Below are positions 12,293-39,470 of a DNA stretch of 64,000 nucleotides, piece by piece (position 1 is the stretch's first letter; every line of letters begins with the position of its first letter). Source of the stretch: Ectothiorhodospira haloalkaliphila ATCC 51935 (lineage in GTDB: Bacteria > Pseudomonadota > Gammaproteobacteria > Ectothiorhodospirales > Ectothiorhodospiraceae). Position numbers and translations under genes: made by a program. The stretch spans positions 173,729-237,728 of the forward strand of contig NZ_KK214996.1 in NCBI RefSeq assembly GCF_000633935.1, in the 5' to 3' direction. The notes beneath the pieces are model-generated. The model ran no database searches. It saw nothing but the letters and a program-made list of their open reading frames with translations, and was not told where the DNA came from.

Positions 12293-14385
12293 ACACACGG
12301 GCCCGCCTCTCATTCATGCTTCCCGTGCTGCTGATGCTGTCCCTGGGCATGGCCCTGCCTGTCACTGCCGATCAGCGGTTCATGGACAAGGAGGACCACC
12401 CGGCGCTGAAAAGGATCATCGGCATGGATTACGAGCGCCAGAAACAGGTGTTTGAACGCATCGGCATCCCGGTTTCGGATGACTTTTACCATTGCCTTTG
12501 CAGCCGCGCCAGGTATGGGTCAAGCACCACCAGCACCTCTTACCACCCCGCAGCCCTGCCCGGCTGGGATGACATGTACATCTGCGGCCGACCGGGCGGG
12601 CCGTGCATGACCCGAGGGTTTGGCTGCTGGAGAAATCCGCTTCCCTCCGACCCCCGTATATGGCGCTTCTGTTCCGGGAGGGATGGCTACGCCGGTGAAG
12701 ACATCCTCGAGGACCTGCTGGGGGCGCTTTCCGAGCTGCCCCAGGCAGGGATCGATTATGGACAAAAATTGGACGAGTGCCGCGAACACCACTCCCTGCG
12801 CACAAGCCCCGACAGCATCCGCGACTTCCAGTACGGCTATGACTACCTGGCCAGCCAGGGTGTGCCGGTACTGCCGCCGCCGTCGTCCGTAACCCGGGAA
12901 CTGCAGCGCGAGGCCGAGTACGACCGTCAGGATCTGCAACGCAGACTCTCCCGGATCGAGCAGCGGGTGGAGAAGGAACTGGAAGTCAGCCTCGTGCAGG
13001 AACTGGGCAAGGAGCTGATCACCCACAAGCATACCCACACGGCGATCGCCGAACTGGCGCGGGCCGTCAACAAGACCGCCCAGCAGGAACTGAGCAAAGA
13101 ACTCGAAGACTTGCAGAAGGCTTCGAACGGGGATCAAGGCCAGATCATTGTCCTGCAGTCACGACTGAACCGGGCCGAGCAGGAAGGCGCCAGGATTGAA
13201 ACCCTGCTCACCGGGCTGGGGGCCGCGCAGGATGCCCACAAGCTGCCGGGCATCTTCTCCGATGCCACCTCCGGGGATCCGCGACAGATGGGCCAGGCCC
13301 TCATCGACACGACCGACCTGGTGGAAAAGTACTTCAAGAAGTACCAGAAAAGCACCGGTGCGGCAGCCCGGCAATGGCGGGACATGGCTGCGCAGGGGCT
13401 GAGCCCGGAGGATGCCCGGCGGTTTGAGCAGATCATCGAGAATGAACAGGTGATCAACACCGCACTTTCCGGCGTGAGCACCGCCCTGAAGGCGGGTAAG
13501 TGGGGCGCCTATGCCTACGATGCCTATCAGGACTACAAGAGGCTGCGGGCCGAGGCTGACCGGATGGCGGCTTCCGGTCGCTACACCGAGGCACAGGCTC
13601 GCATGCTCAACGCCTTCAACGTCATGAGTGATCTCTCCAGGCGCGCCGCCGGCCGCCTGCCGCCCGGTATCAGCGAGATGTCACAGTTCTATGCCGAGGC
13701 CCTGGCGCTGCCCGGTCAGGTGGATCAGATGATGCGGGAGCTGGTCGATCGACACGATGTGATGGCAGATATCTCCGGCACCCAGGCCCAGACCGAGGCC
13801 ATGCGCCGATTCGGCGAGGCGCATCCCAATGCCAGCCTGGACCGGGATGACTACCTGTTCCGCCAGGCGGGGCTTTCCGCCTATATCCACCAACCGGGAG
13901 GGGGGCAGCGGGGTATCGACAGGCCCTATGTGCTGCTCCCCAGGGCCGATGCCGATCCCATCTACATCGATCAGCGCACGCGGGATCGGCTGATGGAGGC
14001 CGCCTACTACTTTCCCCTGGCCAACGACCGGCGCATGACCGATGCCGATGTGGAGGAACTTCTGAGAAACGTGGGAGACGCGGGGACATCCCTGGCCATC
14101 GACGACTGGCGTCGGGCCGCCGAAAAACGGCTCAAGGATGCCGCCTACGCTGGACAGCGGGCCGAACTGATCGGTCCCGACGAGATCAGCATGCAGACCC
14201 TGACGGCGTTCAGCAGCGTGGTGTGGGAAAGTCTCCCCGAGCGCTGCCAGTTCAGCCGATCCACCGAAAAACGCCTGCTGCGGGCCTATGCCCGGCAACC
14301 GGAAGCCGTCGAGTCATGGATCCGCGAGCATGGGCTGGCGCTGACCGTGGCTGAGGCGCGCAGAGACGCGCGGCAGGGGCAATAG
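12289..14385 (+). CDS. Large exported coiled-coil protein, unknown function
   Basis: A 698-residue protein with a clear signal peptide (MLPVLLMLSLGMALPVTADQ at residues 6-25). The first 170 mature residues are rich in Cys, Trp and Pro (HCLCS, ICGRPGGPC, GFGCW, RFCSG, DECREH), which suggests disulfides outside the cytoplasm. Residues about 195-310 form a charged heptad-like coiled coil (LQREAEYDRQDLQRRL, RIEQRVEKELE). The rest is alpha-helical with no recognised motif. No homologous family is recognised. It overlaps the preceding gene by 4 bp, implying that the two work together, perhaps as a periplasmic or surface complex (inference). Confidence 0.8.
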   Translation: MNTRARLSFMLPVLLMLSLGMALPVTADQRFMDKEDHPALKRIIGMDYERQKQVFERIGIPVSDDFYHCLCSRARYGSSTTSTSYHPAALPGWDDMYICGRPGGPCMTRGFGCWRNPLPSDPRIWRFCSGRDGYAGEDILEDLLGALSELPQAGIDYGQKLDECREHHSLRTSPDSIRDFQYGYDYLASQGVPVLPPPSSVTRELQREAEYDRQDLQRRLSRIEQRVEKELEVSLVQELGKELITHKHTHTAIAELARAVNKTAQQELSKELEDLQKASNGDQGQIIVLQSRLNRAEQEGARIETLLTGLGAAQDAHKLPGIFSDATSGDPRQMGQALIDTTDLVEKYFKKYQKSTGAAARQWRDMAAQGLSPEDARRFEQIIENEQVINTALSGVSTALKAGKWGAYAYDAYQDYKRLRAEADRMAASGRYTEAQARMLNAFNVMSDLSRRAAGRLPPGISEMSQFYAEALALPGQVDQMMRELVDRHDVMADISGTQAQTEAMRRFGEAHPNASLDRDDYLFRQAGLSAYIHQPGGGQRGIDRPYVLLPRADADPIYIDQRTRDRLMEAAYYFPLANDRRMTDADVEELLRNVGDAGTSLAIDDWRRAAEKRLKDAAYAGQRAELIGPDEISMQTLTAFSSVVWESLPERCQFSRSTEKRLLRAYARQPEAVESWIREHGLALTVAEARRDARQGQ

Positions 14386-14571
14386 GGGATATCAGCCGCC
14401 GCTTCGAGAGGAAATCCCGGCATAACGGACCCACAGCGGGCCATCTTCCTGGTCAGGAACGAGCCCGTTCCTGCGTTCCGTCACAAGACCCTGCTGCAAC
14501 TGGTGCAGGAAGGGCGGACCGAGGATGTGATCGGCTATCTGGAGTCGATCAGCGCCGGGTTCGTCGGGTGA
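14386..14571 (+). pseudogene. DUF2384/MbcA-like antitoxin C-terminal remnant
   Basis: The frame downstream of the 698-residue gene stop stays open to a TGA at 14571 and has no start. Its end reads FRHKTLLQLVQEGRTEDVIGYL, resembling the C-terminal part of MbcA/ParS-like (DUF2384) antitoxins, where xxxKTxxxLVxEGRxxxVxxYL is a common pattern. The toxin gene is missing. Identification is by memory of the motif only. Confidence 0.35.
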
Positions 14572-14760
14572 TCCTCGTCGACCTGCCTTCCGGCCCCACC
14601 TTTCTGTCTCAGGAGGATCATCGGCGGTCCGGGGTCGAGTTCACCCTCTCGTCCTCATCAAACTCATTCACGCGGGGATCCAGATGCAGGGTCTCCTGGG
14701 TGAGGCCCTGAATGGCCTCCAGGCCCACGAAGGCCGGTTGCGGTTCAGCCACGGGGGCAG

Positions 14761-32425: not shown

Positions 32426-32507
32426 GTATCTCCCCAGGGTAATGCAGCCGCAATACCTTATAGAGTGAGCCTGCAGACTGCATTTCGAGCCGTGATGCTG
32501 ATCGATG

Positions 32508-33218
32508 CTATGCCGCCGCACCCGCCGCCAGGTGCGGCGACCATGCGCTGAGATCGCCGGTGACATTCACCACCCGAAAACGCACGAAGATCGATTCCGA
32601 GAGCCAGTCCTGCTGGCGTGCTGCGCGCAGGGTGCGATGGTGTGGGCTCTTGTGGTAGGCGAAGGCGCGCATTTGTTCAGTGTCCTGCCACAGAGTGAAG
32701 GTGGCCAGCGTGCGCAGGGGCGTCTCACCAAAGCCGATATGGAACCAGCAGCCGGGGACCTGGTGCAGGTGCTGGCGGATCGCGGGCACGGCGCTCCAAA
32801 AGGATCGAACCCGGTTACGACGCACACGCGCGTGGGTGAGGACCGCCACGGGTCCATCCGTTGCGCGCTCGCCGCTGTACTCGAACGGCTCGCGCCCGGC
32901 CCAGGTGCCATGGCCCGAGAGGGGTCGCAACTCGATATGCAGTTGTGCCTCGCTGGGCCCGGCGATGCGCCGATAGAAACGGCTTTGCCGCAGTCGCTGA
33001 TCATCGGCAGCGTCTGGCAACCCGCTTAGCAGGCAGTAGGTGCGCGGATCGGGCAGGATCGAAAAACCATCGCCCCCGCCGCAGCCCATGAGCCTGATGT
33101 CGCCAGCGGGCACATCGGGGCCGATGAACAGGCGGCGAAAACCCATGAAGAGAAAGGCTGCCGGGCTGTAGCCGAGCGGATAACGGAAAAAGCTGAAGGT
33201 GACGCGATCGGTCGACAT
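32508..33218 (-). CDS. Spheroidene monooxygenase (CrtA)-like protein
   Basis: A 236-residue protein resembling the CrtA/DUF3291 group. Recognisable are SFFRYPLGYSPAAFLFMGF at the N-terminus, LTHARVRRNRVRSFWSAVPAI near residue 128, GCWFHIGFGETPLRTLATFTLW near residue 155 and HHRTLRAARQQDWLSESIFVRFRV near the C-terminus. CrtA oxidises carotenoids in purple bacteria, but no other carotenoid gene is in the window, and many CrtA-like proteins are outside carotenoid pathways. It ends 82 bp before the MOSC gene start on the same strand. Confidence 0.7.
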   Translation of the reverse strand: MSTDRVTFSFFRYPLGYSPAAFLFMGFRRLFIGPDVPAGDIRLMGCGGGDGFSILPDPRTYCLLSGLPDAADDQRLRQSRFYRRIAGPSEAQLHIELRPLSGHGTWAGREPFEYSGERATDGPVAVLTHARVRRNRVRSFWSAVPAIRQHLHQVPGCWFHIGFGETPLRTLATFTLWQDTEQMRAFAYHKSPHHRTLRAARQQDWLSESIFVRFRVVNVTGDLSAWSPHLAAGAAA

Positions 33219-33437
33219 GGATTGGGCGTGGCTAGCGTTAGTTTGCGGGTGGTCTGAATGCGTTGCTATGTGATTCCACCTCTCAAAGCTTAGGTCATCG
33301 CGGCGAAATACCGAAGTCTCAGGGAAAAAATACTCATATTCGGCGTAGCGTGCGGATTCCGGTTGTTGGGCAAGGTCTGTGGCATGCGCTCACTTCCTGC
33401 ACCAGAAGGCGGCCACGGGATCGCGGAATATGCGTCA

Positions 33438-34604
33438 TCACTGGCGTAGCCGCAACGGCATACCCACCGTGAACTGCAGGTCCGGCGAATCCGCGGTTAC
33501 GCCAATGCCCAGACCGAAATCCACTGTGAAATCCGGAGACGTGGAGTAGGACGCACCCACATTGAACGTCGAGGTCACCAGGGAGGATCCGGGGATACGC
33601 GCATCGTCAATCCGGCTACTGGCAGACACCTGCTGGGAAAATCCGAAGCTGATGGACGTGTCCAGGTTCAGCGCCAGCGCCAGACCCACCTGCGCACCGA
33701 CGGTATTACCGCTGCGAAACCGACCCGCCTCGATGTCCACACCCTCATTATAAGTGTAGGACAGTCCGCCAAAGAAAACGGCCGGATCCGTCACATGCAC
33801 CAAGGTCAGCGAGCCGGCATAACTGTTGAAACCGCTGCCCAGGGAAAGCTGTCGACCCGGCTCCTGGTCGAAGGGGTTATCACCGGTCGTGGTCTTCCAA
33901 CGCAGGCTACCCAGCAGATCGGGCCACCTTTCCGAGCCCCTGATCAATTGATGAGACAAGGCAAGTTCGATATCACCCAGCCCCTGAGCGGACTGGGTGC
34001 TCTCCTCGTTTTCGGCAGTGACCACCTGACGGCGCTGCCATCCCCAGGGAATGCGCGCCTCCAGCTGCCAGTCTTCAGGCAACCCGATGCGTCCGGTGAA
34101 CGTGGTCTGGGCGATATCGGTGCGGACCCGCTCATTGACAATGTCCCCGACCACCAGAACCGGCAGGATGGTGAAGCCGTCGATGACGATACGATCGCTG
34201 GAACTGCTGATGTAACTGAAGCCCAGGTCTGCTTCGAAGGTTCCAGGCGGCAGCAGCAGACCGCCACGATCGATGAGGGTTTGTTCGAACGCGGCCCGAA
34301 TCAGGCGTTCCTGTTCACGACGCTCTTCCTCCGCGGCTTCCTGGACGGCCTGTTCCAGGGCCTCCTGTTGCGGATCGGGTTCCCTGATCTGTGCCGGGCC
34401 CGGCGCAGATGGGTGCAGATGGGATTCCAGTTCGTCAAGACGGTCGATAAGATGCCGGATGACGTCATCACGCACGACGATGGCCCGTCGCAGTTCCCGC
34501 AACTCCTCCTGCAATTGATCGATGCGTTCATCGGCCATGGCCATGGTGGCAGGCACACCGCTCACCGCCACGATGCATAGCCACGACATCCCCCGCCTGG
34601 ACAT
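33438..34604 (-). CDS. FapF-like outer-membrane beta-barrel with coiled-coil plug
   Basis: A 388-residue predicted porin. After a signal peptide (MSWLCIVAVSGVPATMAMADE) a heptad coiled coil (RIDQLQEELRELRRAIV, residues 26-65) and a helical linker rich in Glu/Arg (QAVQEAAEEERREQERL) lead into a barrel of alternating polar/aromatic strands from about residue 115 (FEADLGFSYIS) to the end; the last strand ends FTVGMPLRLRQ. This is the architecture of FapF, the secretion pore for Fap amyloid. The ATG at 34604 is used (AGGAGG 3 bases away); 34589 is an alternative. It is the last gene of the operon, 23 bp after the C39 peptidase. Confidence 0.72.
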   Translation of the reverse strand: MSRRGMSWLCIVAVSGVPATMAMADERIDQLQEELRELRRAIVVRDDVIRHLIDRLDELESHLHPSAPGPAQIREPDPQQEALEQAVQEAAEEERREQERLIRAAFEQTLIDRGGLLLPPGTFEADLGFSYISSSSDRIVIDGFTILPVLVVGDIVNERVRTDIAQTTFTGRIGLPEDWQLEARIPWGWQRRQVVTAENEESTQSAQGLGDIELALSHQLIRGSERWPDLLGSLRWKTTTGDNPFDQEPGRQLSLGSGFNSYAGSLTLVHVTDPAVFFGGLSYTYNEGVDIEAGRFRSGNTVGAQVGLALALNLDTSISFGFSQQVSASSRIDDARIPGSSLVTSTFNVGASYSTSPDFTVDFGLGIGVTADSPDLQFTVGMPLRLRQ

Positions 34605-34627
34605 CCCCCTCCTGGTCGGAGGCACCC

Positions 34628-35335
34628 TCACGGGGTCACCGGGAGATGGCGTATGGCCGGTGGCACTGGTCCACCCGCCCTCAGCAGGCGGTGAACATAG
34701 TCCAGGTTGGGTAGTGGCGTGTTCAGCGCATTGGGAGCCAGCGGTCCTTGTCCCGGGTCCCATGGCGATTGGCCCACCTCCCGCACGAAGAACCCGATAC
34801 GACTGGACCAGGCCTCGTCAAACTGTGCCAGCGACAGGGTGAGGTTGCCGAAGGCCGGATCACCAATCAGGACACGGTTTCCGGCGCGGCCCCGGAACAC
34901 CACGAAATGATCCAGGTCCCGATAGCGAATGGGGAGAATCGCAGGCACCGGGCTGTGTTCCAGATCCTCCAGGGTCAATTGTGCGTAGCCCTCTGCCTGA
35001 TAGCCCACGGCCTCGGCGAAGCGCTTGAGATCGAGAAGGGAGAATCCGCCACGTGCCCTGACCCTCTCCGGGTCTGTGTTGGCCAGGATACTGACGGCAA
35101 TCGTGGCCTCACTGAAGGGGTCGCCAAAATGGTAGGTGAGAATGGTGCTCAAGGCAGCCGATCCACAGCTGACATCCCACCCCTGGCGCACCAATCCTGC
35201 CTCACGCAACTGCTTGAGGGGCATCACGTCGGTGGAAACGCGACCCGCTGCGGTCGGAAGTGGCGTGCCCCCATCCACCACCGGGCTTGCTGTCGCAAGC
35301 ACCGATATCAGCAGCGCGGGGGCGACGGCTTTCAT
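34628..35335 (-). CDS. C39-family cysteine peptidase, FapD-like
   Basis: A 235-residue periplasmic peptidase. An N-terminal signal peptide (ALLISVLATASPVVDGG) precedes a C39 domain with the oxyanion Gln51 and nucleophile Cys57 (QGWDVSCGSAALSTIL), His143 (LDHFVVFRG) and Asp159 (IGDPAFGN), so the active site looks intact. C39 peptidases cut after double-glycine-type leaders; FapD of Pseudomonas is the C39 member of the Fap amyloid operon. Its start overlaps the upstream gene by 4 bp. It probably processes or polices the three secreted repeat proteins encoded before it. Confidence 0.82.
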   Translation of the reverse strand: MKAVAPALLISVLATASPVVDGGTPLPTAAGRVSTDVMPLKQLREAGLVRQGWDVSCGSAALSTILTYHFGDPFSEATIAVSILANTDPERVRARGGFSLLDLKRFAEAVGYQAEGYAQLTLEDLEHSPVPAILPIRYRDLDHFVVFRGRAGNRVLIGDPAFGNLTLSLAQFDEAWSSRIGFFVREVGQSPWDPGQGPLAPNALNTPLPNLDYVHRLLRAGGPVPPAIRHLPVTP

Positions 35336-35766
35336 CTGGGGCCTCCCAGCGCCGCTGGGGACGTTGCCAACTCCCTCTGGAGATTGATCTGCTGCATCTG
35401 ACCGACCACGGAGTCGATATTGACGTTCAGATTCAGCAAGACATTCACGGGTGAGTTGACCGCGTTGATGTTGATCAGCGAGGAAAGGTTCTGCTGAGCA
35501 TTGTCTCCCAGTATCAGCAGGGCCTGGGGGTTGGAGCGGCCGTCCAGAAGCGCAGCCTGACCTTGAACATGGATGTGACTGCCCCGCCGGGTGGTTCTTG
35601 CTGCCTCGAACCGGGCCAGCTCCTGGGAATCCCCCATCACCGCACCGGCCACCACGCGATCCAGCCAGGCATCATCCATCAGTCGAGGCGACTGGGCATG
35701 CGCGGTTCCCGCCATCCAGAGGGTGCAAGCCAGCAGCCATGTCTTGCGAGATTGGATGGGCATCAT
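35332..35766 (-). CDS. Small exported Fap-like repeat protein
   Basis: A 144-residue protein with a signal peptide (TWLLACTLWMAGTAHAQS). Next comes WLDRVVAGA, a leader-like motif also seen in the two larger proteins of the operon, and then one copy of the Asn/Ala/Val-rich repeat (DNAQQNLSSLININAVNS, then NVLLNLNVNIDSVV, residues 87-122). It may be a minor fibre subunit or nucleator like FapA/FapB (inference). ATGA overlaps join it to both neighbours. Start 35766 or 35763. Confidence 0.72.
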   Translation of the reverse strand: MMPIQSRKTWLLACTLWMAGTAHAQSPRLMDDAWLDRVVAGAVMGDSQELARFEAARTTRRGSHIHVQGQAALLDGRSNPQALLILGDNAQQNLSSLININAVNSPVNVLLNLNVNIDSVVGQMQQINLQRELATSPAALGGPR

Positions 35767-37526
35767 TGAAACCCCTGCACAAAGGTGTTGCTTTGGCTCA
35801 CGGCCAAGGGATTCCCTTGCGTGGCACGTACGTGGGCGGGGGTGCGCGCCACGTTGGTGGCCCCTCCCATGAGCGAGGTGGTGACGTTGGCAGCATTCAA
35901 CGCTCGCAAAGTCTGCTGAGCGCCCCCGTGCACCTGAACGACATGGTAGGTCTCCACCCGGGACTGACTTCCGGACAGGGTGATCAGGTCCGCCCGGGCT
36001 CCGACCAATTCACCGCCGGTCGTCTGCTCTGTCTGTTCCCTCCGGGACCACCGATCCTGCTCCCATTGATGCTCCCAGGTGTGGGTTTGCTTCTCCAGCA
36101 CGCGCTCGAATGACTCCAGGCGCTCGATGGATTGGGTGCCGCAGGACTGCGCGGATCGGGTTAGACAGAGGATGCCATCGGTCAGGTCAGCCCGCATGCC
36201 GAATTCTGTCGACCAGGGCGGACCCTGCTCACCGCCCGGGTCAAACCAGTCTCCCAGGGAGATTTCAAAGCGGGCATCGGGAAGTGACAGATCCAGTTCC
36301 AGGGACTGCAGCGGGCGACCGGGCAGCAGCTCCAGGGCTGCGGAGGTCAATATGCCGGCAACGGGTTCCAGATCCAGGACGAAGGATTCAGTGATGCCTG
36401 GCAGCGAGAGGCCCAGATTGAGATCAACCCCCGTCTGGGGTGTCTGCATCTCGAAACGACCACTGCCCACGGCCGCGATCCCTTGGCCCAGCTTGATATC
36501 CAGGTCCTGGAGCGGGTTGGCGCCTGCGAGGCGGATCTCGCCCACATCCAACGACGCGGTGGTGCGATTGCCCACATTGAAGTCAAGGTCGGCGCGGACG
36601 CAGCCGCCCAAACATAGCTCTCCACGCACGGTGGGAAGATCTGGAGGGGGGAGGCTGATTTGCCCCAGGTTCACCACCAGATCATCTCCCTCCCCCCGAA
36701 TCGAGGCCGGCGTCACCTGGGCACCCTGGATTTGCAGACCCGAAAACTCGGCACCGAGACCGAACCTTGCGGGTTCTTCTCCGGTAAACCAGTCAAATGA
36801 GACGGCGGGGAGTGTCAGTGAGGGCAGCGTGCAGGTGGGGGCACCGCACAGATCCAGCCCCACCTCCCAATCACGCCCCAGGCTGTCGCCGGGTACGGCA
36901 GCGTTGTAATGGGCACGGGTGCGGACCTGACTCAGTTCCTGGTCCACGCGCGTATCCATGCGTGATTGGCGATCCCCAATGCCTTGCCGTAACTGGGTCG
37001 CTTCCCAGCGGCGGCTGTCCTGACCACTGGTGGTGGCACCAAGTTGAGCCCCGTCCGCGCCCTCCTGCACAAAATGATTGGTCTGATCCACCCGGGAGAT
37101 GGGCCCTCCAACGGCCCCACCCTCAAAGACATTCAGGCCGGTGATGGCGTCGGCTCGGGCGACGTTAACCACATTCAACCCGGTCAGACCGGACTGGGCA
37201 GCGCCCCCCAACTGGACCTGATTCAGCGATTCCCGGTCGAACACGGCGCCTCCAGCCACCACGCCAGACACGTCGCCCGGTGGCGGGGGTAATCCTGCCT
37301 CCATGGAAGCAGCGCCCTGCACCCCGGCGCGGGCCCGGTCCGGAAGGGGACGATCGGGAGGTCCGATGGCGCTCTGGCCGGGCTGCTGTACCAGCATCCC
37401 CGAGGCCTGAACCCGGTCCAGTGCCAAGTCATCCAGCGCCCTGGGTGCCGCCGCAAGGGTCGGCGTCAACGCAAGGCCCAGCGCCATCCCGATGGGTACC
37501 CTCAGTAGACCCTGGGACACACTCAT
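35763..37526 (-). CDS. Large exported Fap-like repeat protein
   Basis: A 587-residue protein with a signal peptide (MALGLALTPTLAAAP) and a leader-like motif LALDRVQASG at residues 34-43. A repeat (SGLTGLNVVNVARADAITG, then LNVFEG) lies at about residues 110-155 and a related one (QQTLRALNAANVTTSL, ending VSQSNTFVQG) at the C-terminus. The 380-residue middle is a beta-rich domain with three Cys pairs (LCGAPTC, LCLGGC, LCLTRSAQSC). Repeat-linker-repeat organisation resembles FapC, but the linker is long and Cys-containing. GGAGG precedes the ATG at 37526. It is followed without a gap by the small repeat protein. Confidence 0.72.
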   Translation of the reverse strand: MSVSQGLLRVPIGMALGLALTPTLAAAPRALDDLALDRVQASGMLVQQPGQSAIGPPDRPLPDRARAGVQGAASMEAGLPPPPGDVSGVVAGGAVFDRESLNQVQLGGAAQSGLTGLNVVNVARADAITGLNVFEGGAVGGPISRVDQTNHFVQEGADGAQLGATTSGQDSRRWEATQLRQGIGDRQSRMDTRVDQELSQVRTRAHYNAAVPGDSLGRDWEVGLDLCGAPTCTLPSLTLPAVSFDWFTGEEPARFGLGAEFSGLQIQGAQVTPASIRGEGDDLVVNLGQISLPPPDLPTVRGELCLGGCVRADLDFNVGNRTTASLDVGEIRLAGANPLQDLDIKLGQGIAAVGSGRFEMQTPQTGVDLNLGLSLPGITESFVLDLEPVAGILTSAALELLPGRPLQSLELDLSLPDARFEISLGDWFDPGGEQGPPWSTEFGMRADLTDGILCLTRSAQSCGTQSIERLESFERVLEKQTHTWEHQWEQDRWSRREQTEQTTGGELVGARADLITLSGSQSRVETYHVVQVHGGAQQTLRALNAANVTTSLMGGATNVARTPAHVRATQGNPLAVSQSNTFVQGFQ

Positions 37527-37596
37527 GATCCGAGCCTCCCTGTTGGTCAAGGGCGGCGGGACACAGCCCCACCGCCACCCTTATTTGACGGCGATC

Positions 37597-38808
37597 TCAG
37601 CGGCTGTGGCTGATGACGTTGGTCTGCGTCAGATTGAGGGATTGCCCCCCGCCGGCATTGAGCGCTCCGGAGCGTTGGGTGGCCACATTGACGCCGTTGG
37701 CCACGGCGCTGCCGGCGGCATTGACCACATTCATTGCCCGCACATCAGCCTGGGCATTGCCTGCCAGCACCACCAGGTAGCTGGATTCCACCGTCAGATC
37801 TGAACTGTCCACCACGATGTACTCAGCCTGAGCGTCTCGCAGCACGAAGGGTGCCCGGATTCGTTCATCCAGTGCCGTGTCCCAGGAGCGCTCGCTGACC
37901 TCACTGCTCTCGTGGCTTTGAGCAGTGGAGCGGTCCACCATGTCCATGATCTCCTCTTCAAAGCGCCCCTCGGCCTGGCAGGAGCCGTTCTGGACCGCAC
38001 ACCCTGCCCCCTCGAATTCCACCGTCATCTCGGGCAGCCTGAGGTTGACCCTCACCTCTCCTTCAAAGGAGACATCCCCGGGCAGCGAGACACCTCCACC
38101 TGACTCGAACGTGAACTCACCGGCATCAAAGTGCACACCGAGATCACCGGCACCCGACAGACCCCGTCCGGCCTGTATCTCCTGCCCCAGCACCGTCGAC
38201 TTGGCGTTCACGCGACCACTGCTCTCGTTGCTGCGCGCGAAGGAATGCGTCTCCACGTTGGTAATGTTCTCGGATGACGCCAGCTCTGAGGACTCAAAAC
38301 TGGAGCCGCTGTCCGACGTTACCCGGTCGATATTGGCCTCGATTCGCTCGTAGGATGGCACTGATGCCACGCGGCGCTGTTCCTGGACGATGTCGTTGAT
38401 CTGTGCCACGTTGAAGTGCGCACCGTCCATGATGTCGGCGGTGGTCTCGGCCCGCCCGTCAAAGACGTTGATGCCGTTGGCAATGGTGCTCTCGGCCCCT
38501 GTGACCAGGTTCATCGCCCGGGCGTTGGCCTGAGCGCCCTCAAGTAACTCAACATGACCTGTTGAGTTCAGCGTCGCCGAGGAGTCGTTTCCGACGATGG
38601 CCCCTCCGCTGGCACTGAGGGGGTGACCAGAGGCAACCCCTGCCGTAATGTTATCCATCTCTTCCAGATTCAGTTGGGAAGGTCCGGATTGGGAAGCCAC
38701 AACCGGTGCGGTTGCTCCGACCAGCGCCAGCGTCACGGCCACCGGGAGCACCCGGGGTGCGTGGAGAAAAAAACGTTGCTTGCTCAAGCCCTCAGTTCTG
38801 CGCCTCAT
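37597..38808 (-). CDS. Large exported Fap-like repeat protein, first gene of the operon
   Basis: A 403-residue protein. The N-terminus has a basic stretch and a hydrophobic core (VLPVAVTLALVGATAPVVAS), then LEEMDNITAG, similar to the leader-like motif of its neighbours. Two copies of one repeat lie at residues 92-142 (AQANARAMNLVTGAE, IANGINVF) and 350-403 (AQADVRAMNVVNAAG, VANGVNV). The linker is Ser/Glu-rich and includes a Cys pair (GCAVQNGSC). The repeats and end placement recall FapB/FapC amyloid subunits. It lies 70 bp before the 587-residue gene and starts the five-gene operon; the promoter should lie at 38809-38912. Confidence 0.72.
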   Translation of the reverse strand: MRRRTEGLSKQRFFLHAPRVLPVAVTLALVGATAPVVASQSGPSQLNLEEMDNITAGVASGHPLSASGGAIVGNDSSATLNSTGHVELLEGAQANARAMNLVTGAESTIANGINVFDGRAETTADIMDGAHFNVAQINDIVQEQRRVASVPSYERIEANIDRVTSDSGSSFESSELASSENITNVETHSFARSNESSGRVNAKSTVLGQEIQAGRGLSGAGDLGVHFDAGEFTFESGGGVSLPGDVSFEGEVRVNLRLPEMTVEFEGAGCAVQNGSCQAEGRFEEEIMDMVDRSTAQSHESSEVSERSWDTALDERIRAPFVLRDAQAEYIVVDSSDLTVESSYLVVLAGNAQADVRAMNVVNAAGSAVANGVNVATQRSGALNAGGGQSLNLTQTNVISHSR

Positions 38809-38912: not shown

Positions 38913-39470
38913 TCATCGCGGTGAGTACAGCGCAGCTTTGCCCAAGGAGTGAGGGCTGGCCAGGTCAAGCTTTTTCTCCAATGGCGATACAACGCAGACC
39001 TCGGCCGGCACGATACCCCGCTCGAGCAGGTCCGATGCCGGTCGAGCATAGTAGGCGCTGAGCAAATCCAGATTCGCATATACGAACTCGGACCGATCCC
39101 TGGGAAAGGGGCGGGTGCTGATGCTCCCGAGGTGTGCCAGGTTGACTGCGCCGCCGTGAAACGAACCACTGCGCCATTGGATATCCGTTTGCCCTTCCGA
39201 AGGCACGGACTCCAGCACCAGCAAATGGGGATAGGCGCGTTTGGGGGGATGAGGATGCGCCCGGGGCGCGGGATAAGAAATGATGTCCAGCAGCCGGTAG
39301 GGCTGACCTTCCTTGCGGAAGGCCCCATTGAAGGACACAAAAGACACATACAGACTTTGGCCGATCCGGGATCTTAGATCCTCCACCAAACGGTAGTAGC
39401 GGGAGGAAGGCCAGAGCGTTCCTTCAGAATCGCTTTGCATGGTAGGTAACGCGACGTCTTGCCTGGCCAT
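38913..39470 (-). CDS. Hypothetical protein
   Basis: A 185-residue protein without a signal peptide or membrane segment and with no recognised family. It is rich in Pro, Ser, Arg and His (PAPRAHPHPPKRAYPH) and has a probable alpha/beta core (SLYVSFVSFNGAF, HLLVLESVP, FVYANLDLLSAYYARP). GAGGGGG precedes the ATG at 39470. It lies just upstream of the Fap-like operon on the same strand, with 104 bp between, so it might be a regulator or first gene of the transcript, but nothing in the sequence shows it. Confidence 0.6.
   Translation of the reverse strand: MARQDVALPTMQSDSEGTLWPSSRYYRLVEDLRSRIGQSLYVSFVSFNGAFRKEGQPYRLLDIISYPAPRAHPHPPKRAYPHLLVLESVPSEGQTDIQWRSGSFHGGAVNLAHLGSISTRPFPRDRSEFVYANLDLLSAYYARPASDLLERGIVPAEVCVVSPLEKKLDLASPHSLGKAALYSPR

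Follow-up and report, generated by a model that had tools for sequence, protein, structure and literature searches.

A probable leader-directed export operon pairing a FapD-type peptidase and a FapF-type pore with distinct repeat proteins in Ectothiorhodospira haloalkaliphila

We analyzed a 64,000-nucleotide stretch of the genome of Ectothiorhodospira haloalkaliphila ATCC 51935 (the window) and find that five minus-strand genes at 33438-38808 form, by homology, an operon of the protease-and-pore family behind Pseudomonas amyloid fibers, equipped with different repeat proteins. It is quite probable that this is a FapD/FapF-type export operon, whose structural proteins would be exported by Sec, relieved of a leader by the peptidase D, passed through the pore F and assembled on the surface; cleavage, secretion and fiber formation are what we infer from the evidence below. 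The most informative feature of the operon is a C39-type leader on all three repeat proteins, which was absent from the original prediction of a variant Fap-like amyloid operon.

Results

Five genes and three repeat proteins

The genes A, B, C, D and F follow each other with 4-base overlaps of the ATGA type at B/C and C/D and with gaps of 70 bases between A and B and 23 bases between D and F, confirming the coordinates and the pattern of ATGA overlaps or short gaps originally described. By inspection, all five products have signal-peptide-like N-termini. Gene A (37597-38808) encodes a 403-residue Sec-exported repeat protein in which two repeat units (residues 78-124, at 38437-38577, and 338-390, at 37639-37797) flank a linker in which two Cys residues, C270 and C277, are conserved as a pair. 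The 587-residue exported product of B (35763-37526) has its repeats close to either end (residues 98-148, at 37083-37235, and 523-574, at 35805-35960) and a Cys pair, C454/C462, that is kept in orthologs, while the 144-residue exported product of C (35332-35766) has a single partial unit (residues 83-123, at 35398-35520). D (34628-35335) encodes a 235-residue exported C39 cysteine peptidase homologous to FapD and FilB, and F (33438-34604) a 388-residue FapF-type outer-membrane barrel with an N-terminal coiled coil. All these features lie on the minus strand. The emphasis once placed on much larger, Cys-containing linkers was overstated. FapC homologs average 377 ± 143 residues (PMC3792158); by that measure A is unremarkable in size and B alone is large, and a CxxC motif is present in Pseudomonas FapC (PMC6173800).

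The repeat unit of A and B is about 50 residues long and has the form [VL]xLxGxAQxxxRAxNxVNAxxSxVANGxNV, with one copy near each end of the protein. The two proteins match beyond chance, with a phmmer E-value of 6e-7 between the window proteins and of 2.6e-12 when an ortholog of B is used, and hhalign gives a probability of 99.7% for the A family against the B family. The unit in C corresponds to the first two thirds of the A/B unit. A profile built from A/B units only finds two C orthologs at E 0.001-0.006 and misses the window's own C, and hhalign of the repeats minus the leader gives P 3.6e-5 for C over 33 columns; the evidence for C is weaker once tested without circularity. The observation that one repeat recurs in three exported proteins is confirmed: the repeats align above chance by phmmer and hhalign in A and B, and C holds a partial copy with a weaker match.

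None of A, B and C has an NCBIfam match or a Pfam match better than the family cut-off, and a PDB search with A gave no meaningful match. AlphaFold models have pLDDT values of 32 for A (six-sequence alignment) and 29 for B (four-sequence alignment), too low to be informative about the fold. A scan for sigma-70 promoters gave no match above chance, and viral contigs gave no relatives. Composition gives no signal of horizontal transfer, the G+C content being 62.8% in the operon and 62.7% in the window. Just upstream, on the same strand, lies a 185-residue ORF (38913-39470) that has no Pfam or NCBIfam match and is not seen at two of the orthologous loci (L106 and L109).

The peptidase and the pore

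D matches the Pfam family Peptidase_C39 (E 3e-17) and, among NCBIfam models, FilB at 2.7e-33 (115 bits) and FapD at 9e-27 (93.8 bits, with an equivalog cut-off of 330). The C39 catalytic set of Gln, Cys, His and Asp is intact, as originally noted, in the form of Q51, C57, H143 and D159. By sequence, D is an exported periplasmic C39 peptidase, homologous to FapD at the family level. F matches NCBIfam FapF at 2e-40 (138.8 bits, where the equivalog cut-off is 700) and, over the barrel, solved FapF structures (PDB 5o65, E 3.7e-23), which identifies it by homology as a FapF-type pore. With both profiles matching, D and F respectively, the earlier FapD/FapF assignment is right at the family level. 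One of the two leader-docking residues of PCAT1, I59, apparently corresponds to a Lys in D, as read by eye from a distant pairwise alignment, so the mode of leader binding may differ in D. A third C39 gene in the genome (L030) has no FapF gene adjacent to it.

A C39-type leader behind the signal peptide

In A, B and C the Sec signal peptide is directly followed by a bacteriocin-type leader of the form LxxxxLDxxTAG, all three encoded on the minus strand: LNLEEMDNITAG in A (residues 46-57, 38638-38673), LDDLALDRVQAS in B (residues 31-42, 37401-37436) and MDDAWLDRVVAG in C (residues 30-41, 35644-35679). The published C39 consensus, in which position -4 is hydrophobic, is L(-12)xxxE(-8)L(-7)...G(-2)G(-1), and its segment from -10 to -4 docks as a helix (PMC6363468, PMC6959990). 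Like those of C39 substrates, the leaders found here are hydrophobic at -4, have Leu or another hydrophobic residue at -12 and -7 and end in small residues at -2 and -1. The double-glycine-type pattern [LM][STDN]xxx[LM]Dxx[IV]xA[GS], which we adapted from the published consensus, matches all 14 independent A/B/C proteins, compared with 1.6% of shuffled N-termini and 0 of 60 segments elsewhere in the same proteins. Over all fetched loci, with signal-peptide-like ORFs picked by a crude rule, it is present in 22 of 167 such ORFs lying close to the peptidase and on the same strand as it, and in 2 of 248 elsewhere. Peptidase D probably cuts the leader tags of A, B and C.

A 39-position profile covering signal peptide and leader only, with training proteins all from FapD-FapF loci, detects the three repeat proteins (A, B, C) of the window's genome with E-values of 2e-14, 7e-11 and 9e-11, the next best match being at 0.5. 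Six of 369 genomes of the class were reported: the four training sources, G160 and G171. The match in G160 is to the signal peptide alone, and there is no C39 gene. G171 provides the sole truly blind locus, and this is a FapD-FapF operon (L135, 7199-11710). Three small A/S/Y-rich secreted proteins with the leaders LSDSALDNITAG, LNENQMDSVTAG and LTDADMDSITAG come first, then a C39 peptidase matching D at E 2e-39 and a FapF homolog matching F at 7e-21 and a FapF profile at 3e-41; the trees place both inside the clade of the window operon. The FapF-model search, at the threshold used, had missed this pore; the operon came to light through the leader profile alone, which offers a way to further operons of this class. 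The cargo proteins have no Pfam family match and no visible similarity to the bodies of A, B and C, indicating that quite different cargo can share one route.

Orthologs and phylogeny

Nine further genomes of the genus were sampled, and a near-copy of the operon, with a FapF that is 98% identical, is present in just one, that of a sister species (G007). In G007 the operon is followed immediately downstream by a segment of about 3.5 kb, including two sulfite-reductase-subunit-like genes, that the window's genome does not have at this position (window 32499-33243 against L031 2359-3105). Five-gene orthologs occur in three metagenome-assembled genomes: L106 (Pseudomonadales, record label CSSed), L109 and L108, the last being the same locus as L077 and having its A ortholog split by a frameshift (1-1199). 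A fourth such genome, L107, has a four-gene form with one A-like protein, C, D and F. The operon is rare: a query with B reaches 1 other genome among the 369 of the class sample, and a query with the A alignment adds no further genome in the phylum sample. A match of the C-protein profile in genome G680 was spurious.

The six operon loci form one group in both trees (support 100/97 for FapD and a weak 79/49 for FapF), which loci L100 and L102 join with good support (FapF 100/98, FapD 95/93). This combined clade stands apart from the Fap clade, from a confirmed Fil operon of the sample and from a clade named here after a second cluster in the window's genome (L029). At L100 (4731-8007) and L102 (7808-10056), FapD-FapF pairs accompany leadered secreted proteins of 94-113 residues, with no FapE. 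The L029 cluster (G000:C2:786000-803000, genes at about 794-798 kb) is conserved in many relatives. It encodes an S/N/D-rich 492-residue protein, a 122-residue protein, a C39 peptidase and a 186-residue protein with the leader VPDHELADQRGG, and its FapF gene, which has a regulator-like gene next to it, lies on the opposite strand.

Relation to Fap and the FapE leader

No NCBIfam match to FapB, FapC or FapE was found in the window or in the orthologs, and a Fap-repeat profile of 67 units from 23 FapB/FapC-type proteins reaches the A/B/C proteins with a best E of 0.08 and an hhalign probability of 1.8%. FapE has no match in A-C. There is no ORF between D and F, and because there is no room for one we regard FapE as absent at the locus, in line with the earlier remark that no FapE was obvious. 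A genome-wide FapE search gave no match, and its positive controls likewise gave none. The searches for the FapB/FapC repeat and for FapE came back empty, and on that ground the operon appears not to be a member of Fap, though it would work like the Fap secretion machinery. The label of a Fap variant was too specific, given these failed models, scores far under the equivalog cut-offs and a separate clade.

In Pseudomonas, secretion is lost in the FapD mutant C38A, and FapE is the only protein whose N-terminus is removed completely; the authors, who saw no canonical C39 sequence, described the FapD target as unclear (PMC5557850). A 2018 review, which also describes fapD-fapF pairs in five further phyla, states that the FapD substrate is yet to be determined (PMC6173800), and in a 2025 review FapD is merely thought to process FapE and FapF (PMC12822426). 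In the open-licence literature we found no paper naming this leader. Leaderless iterative profiles of the FapE body drifted into FapB, FapC and small proteins, and we therefore defined the FapE position purely by location after the peptidase. Proteins in this position carry [LIVMF]x4[LMV]x3RG[GRK] in 36 of 37 loci, against a background of 61 in 1827 ORFs of similar length, and the sole exception is a Fil-like locus (L037). Leader counts of 12/12 and 17/17 were set aside, as the lists had partly been picked from motif hits. The motif is also present in a Vibrio locus (L117) outside the 37, and examples are LADGELAHLRGR in Aeromonas caviae FapE and LTDDEMSSLRGG in Photobacterium. None of 23 FapB/FapC-type proteins has it. 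The end of the leader differs by clade, with RG[R/K] in Fap, RGG in the L029-type and xAG in the window operon; canonical FapE departs from classical C39 substrates in having R or K at -1. A leader of the same kind on Pseudomonas-type FapE suggests what FapD recognizes, and the comparison yields an exact predicted site for a peptidase whose target the literature describes as unclear.

The drift of the leaderless FapE-body profiles into FapB, FapC and the small proteins of the L029 type is a hint that these substrates and FapE may share ancestry. In one canonical Fap operon (L078), a small exported ORF at 14267-14581, upstream of the gene in the FapA position, contains the leader-like VEDSELHEISGK, and a comparable small ORF at L079 contains ADEELSSMRGTG; these may possibly be further peptidase substrates.

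Discussion

In the mechanism that we propose, all five proteins would cross the inner membrane via Sec. Periplasmic D would bind the leader through the hydrophobic residues at -12, -7 and -4 and cut after A-G, or after A-S in B, and A, B and C, once released and still unfolded, would leave through F. Outside the cell they would assemble through the repeat AQxxxRAxNxVN...ANGxNV, probably into a fiber or a surface layer. Homology and the leader evidence point to Sec export, leader trimming and export through F; surface assembly is the least certain step.

In another reading, the pore and the repeat proteins could form a surface layer or an adhesin without cross-β structure, with the leader mechanism kept and only the end point different. 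The repeat lacks the Fap signature, the conserved Cys pairs in the linkers could belong to folded domains, and the small proteins exported at the sister loci have bodies unrelated to these; nothing decisive counts against it, although β-rich, N-containing repeats fit cross-β assembly. We consider this possible, at odds of roughly one in three. A true Fap amyloid, in which the FapB/FapC repeats have diverged beyond recognition and FapE has been lost, would explain the shared peptidase and pore families, the repeat proteins directly upstream of the peptidase and the repeats flanking long linkers, and FapB, FapC and FapE homologs are indeed highly variable (PMC3792158). The failure of the Fap-repeat profile and of the NCBIfam models in window and orthologs, the separate clade in both trees and a leader on every subunit, where FapB and FapC have none, make it unlikely.

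Cleavage itself could be in doubt if the leader were an uncut docking tag for the peptidase or pore and D acted as a chaperone, a role known for C39-like domains without catalytic activity in some type I secretion systems (PMC5557850). The catalytic residues of D are all intact, however, and secretion in Pseudomonas requires the catalytic Cys of FapD (PMC5557850), so that this reading is distinctly unlikely. That the locus is a Fil-type pilus operon, as in Acinetobacter filA-F, is very improbable: D does score highest with FilB (115 bits, against 94 for FapD), but FilA, FilD and FilF, present in the sampled Fil operon, have no match at the locus or its orthologs, F prefers FapF (139 bits against 64), and Fil branches far off in the FapF tree.

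Beyond the preferred export operon, we lean slightly towards a broader proposal, that FapD peptidases and FapF pores are a general leader-directed route for which Fap, Fil, the L029-type clusters, the window operon and the small-cargo operons are sets of cargo, with the FapE leader as the recognition site of FapD. If true, Sec-exported proteins would be recognized in the periplasm through a portable C39 leader.

Like the Pseudomonas Fap operon (fapABCDEF), the window operon combines a periplasmic C39 peptidase, a FapF-type pore and exported repeat proteins, but it has no recognizable FapA, FapB, FapC or FapE, a different repeat and a separate FapD/FapF clade. The leader, which canonical FapE carries but FapB and FapC lack, is here on every structural protein. 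Acinetobacter Fil shares the pairing of a C39 peptidase (FilB) with a FapF-like pore (FilC), and a FilA relative at L039 has a weakly similar N-terminus (MTDTAMSNATGQ); the window operon lacks FilA, FilD and FilF and is distant in the trees. The L029-type cluster likewise has FapD and FapF homologs and a leadered exported protein, but differs in its S/N/D-rich main protein, in an RGG leader carried by the protein in the FapE position, in the opposite-strand FapF and in its clade. The sister operons L100, L102 and L135 have the FapD/FapF clade, the leader LxxxxMDxxxAG and the lack of FapE in common with the window operon and differ in their small cargo of 94-143 residues, which lacks the A/B/C repeat. 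The C39 family and the leader consensus of L(-12), L(-7), a hydrophobic -4 and small residues at -2 and -1 are shared with double-glycine bacteriocin precursors and the peptidase-containing ABC transporters that process them, whereas here processing would be periplasmic, following Sec export and with no ABC transporter, and the cargo would consist of large structural proteins.
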